This document shows, one piece after another, positions 61,190 to 63,015 of a DNA stretch of 64,000 bases. A program made the position numbers and the translations under genes. Position 1 is the first letter of the stretch; every line of letters begins with the position of its first letter. The notes under the pieces are model-generated. The model was not told the DNA's origin. It searched no databases and saw only the letters and a program-made list of their open reading frames with translations. Source of the stretch: Maridesulfovibrio ferrireducens (GTDB lineage Bacteria; Desulfobacterota; Desulfovibrionia; Desulfovibrionales; Desulfovibrionaceae); contig NZ_JAEINN010000001.1 of the NCBI RefSeq assembly GCF_016342405.1, positions 62,001 to 126,000 on the forward strand, given 5' to 3'.

Positions 61190-61846
61190 ATGTATGTAGG
61201 ACTGAAAATGCTCAAGGATTTTGTTACGGTAACTCCTGAAACTTTAGTGAAGGATGCGGACAAACTTCTCGAAGATAATCAGTTGTGGATGCTTCTTGTC
61301 AAAGACGGTGAAGAACTTGTTGGTTATGTCACAAAAGAGGACGTCCGGGCCGCTCTACCCTCAGTAATAAGCTCTCTTGAAAAGCACGAGCTGAATTATC
61401 TGCTCAGTAAAATTACTGTCAGGGACGTAGTTCGTAAAAACATAACCACAATTCCGCCTGAAACTGACATCGAAGCTGCTGCAGATCTTATGTATGAGAT
61501 GAATCTCTCTGGTCTGGCCGTGGTGGATAAGGAAGGAAAGCTCATCGGCTATATTAACCGGAATAAGATGCTGGAAGTTCTTGTCGAAGAAATGGGACTA
61601 AAGCAAGGTGGTTCCCGTATTGTTGTTGAAGCGGAAGAAAGGACCGGGGTTCTTTATGAACTCGCTGGAATTATTTCAAACATGAAATACAACATTATCA
61701 GTACCGGATTATTTTATCATAAAAACCGCAGAATGGTTGTTGTTCGTGTGGATACTGAAGATCCTTCCCCTATAATAGAATCTTTAAGGGAACGCGGACA
61801 TAAAGTTGTCGGTCCCGATGACTTTAAACATGAATGGAAGTCATAG
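61190..61846 (+). CDS. CBS-pair and ACT-domain regulatory protein
   Basis: A 218-residue protein with two CBS motifs (residues about 8-60 and 75-135, ending in YINRNKMLEVLVEEM) and a C-terminal ACT domain (IVVEAEERTGVLYELAGIIS). This AcuB-like architecture senses adenine nucleotides and small metabolites. It begins with ATG at 61190 with GGAGG nine bases upstream. Effector unknown. It may control a nearby or distant enzyme; none is adjacent. Confidence 0.83.
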   Translation: MYVGLKMLKDFVTVTPETLVKDADKLLEDNQLWMLLVKDGEELVGYVTKEDVRAALPSVISSLEKHELNYLLSKITVRDVVRKNITTIPPETDIEAAADLMYEMNLSGLAVVDKEGKLIGYINRNKMLEVLVEEMGLKQGGSRIVVEAEERTGVLYELAGIISNMKYNIISTGLFYHKNRRMVVVRVDTEDPSPIIESLRERGHKVVGPDDFKHEWKS

Positions 61847-61869
61847 TTTTTTAGTCTTTTTTTTAAGAA

Positions 61870-61910
61870 AATAAAAAGGGCCGCATCTTTTATGATGCGG
61901 CCCTTTCCTA
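61870..61910. terminator. bidirectional rho-independent terminator
   Basis: AAGGGCCGCATC pairs with GATGCGGCCCTT (61876-61905) around a six-base loop, with A's on the left and T's after, between the convergent CBS-ACT and selenoprotein genes. Confidence 0.9.
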
Positions 61911-61954
61911 TTGGGTCTGCGACCCCGGAATTAAACGGTATAATTATCTGCTTA

Positions 61955-62266
61955 TTAACCGCAGCTTCCTGAACACGAACCACATTCTCCGCCGGCGCCC
62001 ATTTCCATAGCTGAAGTGATAACAAATCCGCTATAGCTAAGGTCGACTTTGAAAGGGCTTCCCTGTCCGTTAAGTTCTTTGTCTATCAGAAAGGTGAATC
62101 CCGCTGCATCAAGGTTCTCGTCAGTGTCTTTTGGCTCATCCAGAGCCAATGCCAATCTGGGGCCTGCTCAGCCACCTGTAGAGAGGTAGATGCGTATAGG
62201 GGTTCTTTCTTTATCTGCAAAGTAGCTTTCAAGCTGTTTAGAGGCAGCTTCTGTTATTTCAACCAT
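61955..62266 (-). CDS. IscA/HesB-like selenoprotein (in-frame TGA = Sec)
   Basis: A 103-residue protein if the TGA at 62170-62168 (codon 33) is read as selenocysteine. Before it: the start ATG at 62266 with GGAGGG upstream, then ITEAASKQLESYF and IRIYLSTGG, which match the beginning of IscA/HesB A-type carriers. After it: AGPRLALALDEP and FVITSAMEMGAGGECGSCSG, ending with cysteines. Normal IscA has Cys at this exact GG-C position. Immediately after the TGA, CCAGA and TCTGG form a stem around an 11-base G-containing loop, suitable as a bacterial SECIS. HesB-like selenoproteins are known in Desulfovibrio. A translation starting after the TGA would lose the domain's first half. Confidence 0.9.
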
Positions 62267-62460
62267 TATTCCCTCCTTATAGGACTTCTCGATACAAAAA
62301 TAAGTTTTCTATTTGGTTTTGTCAAATGCTCCATGTTGACCTTGATAGTCTCTTAAGGTAGGAAATATACTCCTGTTCAGTTTTACCAATATAATTATTT
62401 GTTTCAGATATTTCAACAAGACAAATTAAACGCTTCCGTCGTTTATAGGGAGTCATCATA

Positions 62461-63015
62461 ATGAAGACTAAAGATCTTATATTGGAAACAGCCAAAGAAA
62501 TAATTTCTCAGGTGGGTTTCCATAGAGCCACGACTTCTAATTTAGCTAAAGCTGCTAATATTTCGGAAGGTACCATATACAGGCACTTTGAGAGTAAGGA
62601 AGATATTCTTCTTCACATTCTTGCAGGGCTTGAAGAAAGTTTCTCATATTATATTGAAGGCGTTCGTCAGAAGCTTGATAAAGATGAGTGTTCGTTTGAT
62701 ATGATAATGGCTGATTATTTCACTTTTGTTGAAGATAATGAAGTTGACATGAAGATTATGCTTTCCACATACGGATTGCTTGATTCTTCTAAGCGCCTGA
62801 TGGCTGTTTTCCTTAAAAATCTAGAGCTTATCCTTGAAGATTGTATCAAGGTAGGGATCAGAAAAGGAATCCTCAGAGATGTTGCTGTTGAAGAAAATGC
62901 TACAATTATCATGACAATTATTTTCGGTCTGACCAGAATGCATCTGTACTGGCCTAACCAGAGAGATGTTCGTACAGAAGCTATTGATTTCTGTCGTCGC
63001 AGTCTTCTCAAATAG
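62461..63015 (+). CDS. TetR/AcrR-family transcriptional regulator
   Basis: A 184-residue repressor. The N-terminal helix-turn-helix (LILETAKEIISQVGFHRATT, SNLAKAANISEGTIYRHFES) is canonical. The C-terminal ligand domain is divergent, with FVEDNEVDMKIMLSTYGLLD and IFGLTRMHLYW. It is transcribed toward the copper ATPase gene, from which it is separated by a terminator. Target unknown; the adjacent selenoprotein gene upstream is transcribed divergently and is one candidate. Confidence 0.88.
   Translation: MKTKDLILETAKEIISQVGFHRATTSNLAKAANISEGTIYRHFESKEDILLHILAGLEESFSYYIEGVRQKLDKDECSFDMIMADYFTFVEDNEVDMKIMLSTYGLLDSSKRLMAVFLKNLELILEDCIKVGIRKGILRDVAVEENATIIMTIIFGLTRMHLYWPNQRDVRTEAIDFCRRSLLK

Follow-up and report, generated by a model that had tools for sequence, protein, structure and literature searches.

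A HesB-like selenoprotein was reported from Desulfovibrio vulgaris and D. desulfuricans in a survey published in 2006 (PMC1794560), and proteins of this kind are also covered by a 2026 review, which describes the retrieval of HesB-like selenoproteins from RefSeq (PMC13188914). In Methanococcus maripaludis, a HesB-like selenoprotein was found by mutagenesis combined with 75Se labelling, and the corresponding mutant fixed nitrogen without defect (PMC11097638). The function of these proteins has been called unclear in both accounts (PMC13188914; PMC11097638). The gene considered here, from Maridesulfovibrio ferrireducens, is another member of this already known group; its novelty is low, because HesB-like selenoproteins, those of Desulfovibrio included, had been published by 2006. 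Here we compare it with the described families, with its homologues in the order Desulfovibrionales, and with the selenocysteine (Sec) machinery of its genome.

Structure of the gene

The gene occupies positions 61955-62266 on the minus strand of the window, that is, the whole 64,000-nucleotide (64 kb) stretch of DNA that was analysed. It runs from an ATG at 62264-62266 to a TAA at 61955-61957, the stop codon being counted in the coordinates, and its frame is interrupted only once, by a TGA at codon 33 (62168-62170, minus strand). Translation with TGA as Sec yields a protein of 103 residues, MVEITEAASKQLESYFADKERTPIRIYLSTGG-U-AGPRLALALDEP...GECGSCSGSCG. A preliminary description of the locus gave the correct coordinates and left out the strand, which is minus; the ATG and the ribosome-binding site that it pointed out are both present, the latter as AAGGAGGG at 62271-62278 on the minus strand, with AGGAG retained in an upstream alignment of 12 loci of the genus. 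The same description expected ordinary annotation to break the gene up. This holds for naive gene callers, and the mechanical list of open reading frames (ORFs) indeed contains just a 66-aa downstream ORF beginning at TTG, but NCBI has a dedicated model for such proteins, NF038090.

Family assignment and predicted fold

Once the TGA is read through, the translation forms one continuous HesB-like domain, as the preliminary description had proposed. The protein is a member of the NCBIfam family NF038090 (IscA_HesB_Se), with a score of 116.9 bits against a curated cut-off of 85 and residues 1-97 aligned to profile positions 1-101; the match is full-length, Sec stands at the GG-U/C position, and we see no difference of substance from the family. 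The Pfam model PF01521 was also matched above its gathering score (30.3 versus 26.3 bits). The relationship to TIGR01911 (HesB_rel_seleno) is more distant: the UxGP motif of that type is present as UAGP, but the score falls under the cut-off (34.6 versus 66.35 bits), so that by these models the two are sister subfamilies. Scores against the equivalog models of IscA, SufA and ErpA were far under their cut-offs. When the whole genome was scanned, PF01521 gave no match, though NF038090 gave two copies; the PF01521 negative was therefore taken as a missed detection. A divergent Cys paralogue is encoded elsewhere in the genome (L018, 1501-1815; G000 C10:22746-23039), and its NF038090 score of 76.2 is just short of the cut-off of 85.

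A profile built from 21 homologues matches IscA-family proteins in the PDB, with Sec33 aligned to the cysteine of the GCSG motif; in Escherichia coli IscA (1s98) the equivalent residue is the Cys of TSGCSG. Codon 33 accordingly coincides with the first cluster-binding Cys of IscA, in line with the earlier placement of this codon at the cysteine position of A-type carriers. The AlphaFold model has a mean pLDDT of 80.7, and its best PDB matches in a Foldseek search are IscA and SufA, with TM scores of up to 0.75 (1s98). The likeness to IscA, SufA and ErpA comprises the predicted fold, the position of the first ligand and the PF01521 domain. The present protein differs from them at the first ligand, which is Sec rather than Cys, and in its C-terminus, where the canonical CxC is replaced by a Cys-rich tail, CGSCSGSCG, modelled at low confidence (pLDDT about 41).

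Conservation of the Sec codon and of the SECIS element

Homologues were found in 148 of 150 genomes of the order, and each of the 11 genomes sampled from the genus encodes one with exactly one in-frame TGA. Among the fetched loci, gathered by a pattern that admits either Cys or TGA at the site, TGA was seen in 75 distinct genes and a Cys codon in 27, and the site forms an invariant column of the family alignment. The 75 TGA genes span several families, and in each of them the frame is otherwise intact.

Sec and Cys genes are further separated by a bacterial SECIS (bSECIS) element. Its core, at 62133-62147 on the minus strand, consists of the stem GGCUC/GAGCC closing the loop UGGAU; it begins 20 nt past the UGA, with a gap of 26 nt from the TGA to the loop G, and in the present gene the stem reaches 7 bp (UUGGCUC/GAGCCAA, 62131-62149). 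All of the 69 distinct Sec sequences close a five-pair stem, either GGCUC/GAGCC itself or a compensated form of it, around a UGGAY loop; no Cys gene does so (0 of 27). Two of the pairs display compensatory changes (G-C to A-U, G-C to U-A and C-G to U-A), and RNAalifold assigned the alignment -8.6 kcal/mol, with a z-score of -8.5 relative to column shuffles. At the codon level, 73 of the 75 Sec genes read GCT-CTG-GAY-GAG here. The Cys genes never do, although 14 of them encode the same [AV]LDE peptide. In four Sec genes (L102, L106, L107 and L108), U-A replaces G-C as the outermost pair of the core, and LDE is followed by Gln (CAA) rather than Pro; since this CAA pairs with the changed upstream base, the stem evidently constrains the protein as well. 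The preliminary description was right in expecting a SECIS element after the TGA and mistaken about its identity: the CCAGA/TCTGG stem that it named is found in the sequence, but is intact in just 12 of the 69 distinct Sec sequences, and this poor conservation rules it out.

These data also bear on whether the TGA has any meaning at all. The 66-aa downstream ORF, which is all that a naive caller reports, would fit a decaying pseudogene in which a Cys codon has mutated to a stop, or else a sequencing error. This explanation is refuted by conservation, namely the single TGA in every sampled genome of the genus, the intact frames of 75 distinct genes and the SECIS stem paired in all 69 sequences, and we regard its probability as negligible. 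Chance occurrence was rejected on the same conservation of TGA and SECIS; moreover, although 21 TGA read-through frames (at least 25 codons before the TGA and at least 60 after it) can be drawn in the 64 kb window, a SECIS-like stem, defined by a simple rule as five perfect base pairs closing a small loop that opens with G, follows the TGA of the present gene only.

Selenium machinery

The complete set of selA, selB, selC and selD, the presence of which had been proposed as a check, is encoded in the genome. The genes selA, selB and selD were detected over the respective cut-offs (607.6, 374.2 and 330.7 bits), as was the tRNA-Sec encoded by selC (80.1 bits), for which ARAGORN reports the anticodon tca (UCA). 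The selD gene itself has one in-frame TGA, within SAG-U-AAK, and lies about 7.7 kb past the end of the window (L058, G000 C1:133687-134607); selD with an in-frame TGA is a known selenoprotein form. Three molybdopterin-family stretches of the genome also carry in-frame TGA codons, as is expected of formate dehydrogenases.

The TGA might conceivably be decoded in another way, such as near-cognate read-through with insertion of Trp or Cys, or programmed termination yielding a functional short peptide. Against these stand the homologues with Cys at the site, collected with the Cys-or-TGA pattern, in an invariant column, the downstream stem that tracks Sec versus Cys genes exactly, and the complete SelABCD set with its tRNA-Sec; decoding of this sort therefore appears highly improbable. 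Collectively, the family profile, the Sec/Cys exchange, the covarying SECIS element and selABCD strongly support the original proposal of a HesB/IscA-like selenoprotein, and UGA codon 33 is almost certainly read as Sec. The domain, the exchange, the SECIS conservation and the Sec machinery were established by sequence comparison and the fold was predicted; from these we infer the actual insertion of Sec in M. ferrireducens, the binding of a cluster and the physiological role. In annotation, a single selenoprotein of 103 residues should be entered for this gene.

Genomic neighbourhood

Flanked by a convergent CBS-ACT gene on one side and, on the other, by a divergent gene for a TetR-family regulator (62461-63015, plus strand; PF00440, 61.2 bits), the selenoprotein gene stands alone. 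A putative sigma-70-type promoter matching the consensus is located at 62297-62325 on the minus strand, with TTGACA (62320-62325) separated by 17 nt from TATTTT (62297-62302); across the 12 aligned upstream regions of the genus, TTGACA is invariant and the -10 region conserved. The TetR gene adjoins the Sec gene at every locus of the same genus, as well as at three loci of other genera (L084, L085 and L101), and its product is a possible regulator of the selenoprotein gene. At the opposite end, a strong inverted repeat at 61870-61907, in the gap that separates the HesB gene from its convergent CBS-ACT neighbour, is probably a bidirectional terminator serving both. An Rfam scan of 61500-62700 yielded no match above the gathering scores, and the many weak matches, mostly on this repeat, were taken as chance.

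Evolution of Sec and Cys copies

In a tree of 102 rows, which is built on few columns and has many weak forks, the Sec/Cys labels require 11 changes, at least 8 of which are forced by well-supported branches. Many Desulfovibrionales have HesB-like genes of the two types, Sec and Cys, arranged in tandem, the Cys copies being without SECIS. Tandem arrangement and interleaving were observed at loci L003, L034, L040, L041, L043-L046, L083-L087 and L091, and further at L094, L096, L097, L100 and L104. The combination of interleaved branches and tandem pairs suggests repeated local duplication accompanied by Sec/Cys switching, or gene conversion. The same two observations could be read functionally, with the Sec/Cys isoform pairs of Desulfovibrionales allowing a change, in response to selenium, between selenol- and thiol-ligated forms of an Fe-S carrier and with the neighbouring divergent TetR protein as candidate regulator, a speculative scheme to which we would give only a small chance.

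Proposed function

As currently envisaged, a single-gene transcription unit would give rise to a small A-type protein of the HesB/IscA fold. SelB carrying Sec-tRNA(UCA) would bind the GGCUC-UGGAU-GAGCC stem-loop inside the coding sequence, so that translation would not terminate at the UGA but incorporate Sec. Once the protein is folded, this residue, Sec33, would sit where IscA carries its first cluster-binding Cys and, together with the CGSCSGSC tail, would probably bind an Fe-S cluster or metal in a carrier or repair role. Homology and fold make an Fe-S carrier the function towards which we lean, with some reserve. A genuine selenoprotein might instead act in redox chemistry or metal handling, for example as a selenol/thiol metallochaperone: redox functions are favoured for uncharacterised selenoproteins (PMC13188914, PMC11097638), and hypA/hypB and a P-type ATPase are encoded near the selenoprotein gene in this genus. 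Both the predicted fold and the position of the first ligand, however, agree with IscA/SufA, and the C-terminus is Cys-rich where the other ligands of IscA stand, and we consider such a role rather unlikely, if well worth keeping in mind.

A read-through selenoprotein of this kind can thus be recognised from the raw sequence, and the call survives a strict test of the SECIS element in Sec versus Cys genes. Should the protein indeed be an Fe-S carrier, it would raise the question of why selenium is used as a cluster ligand.
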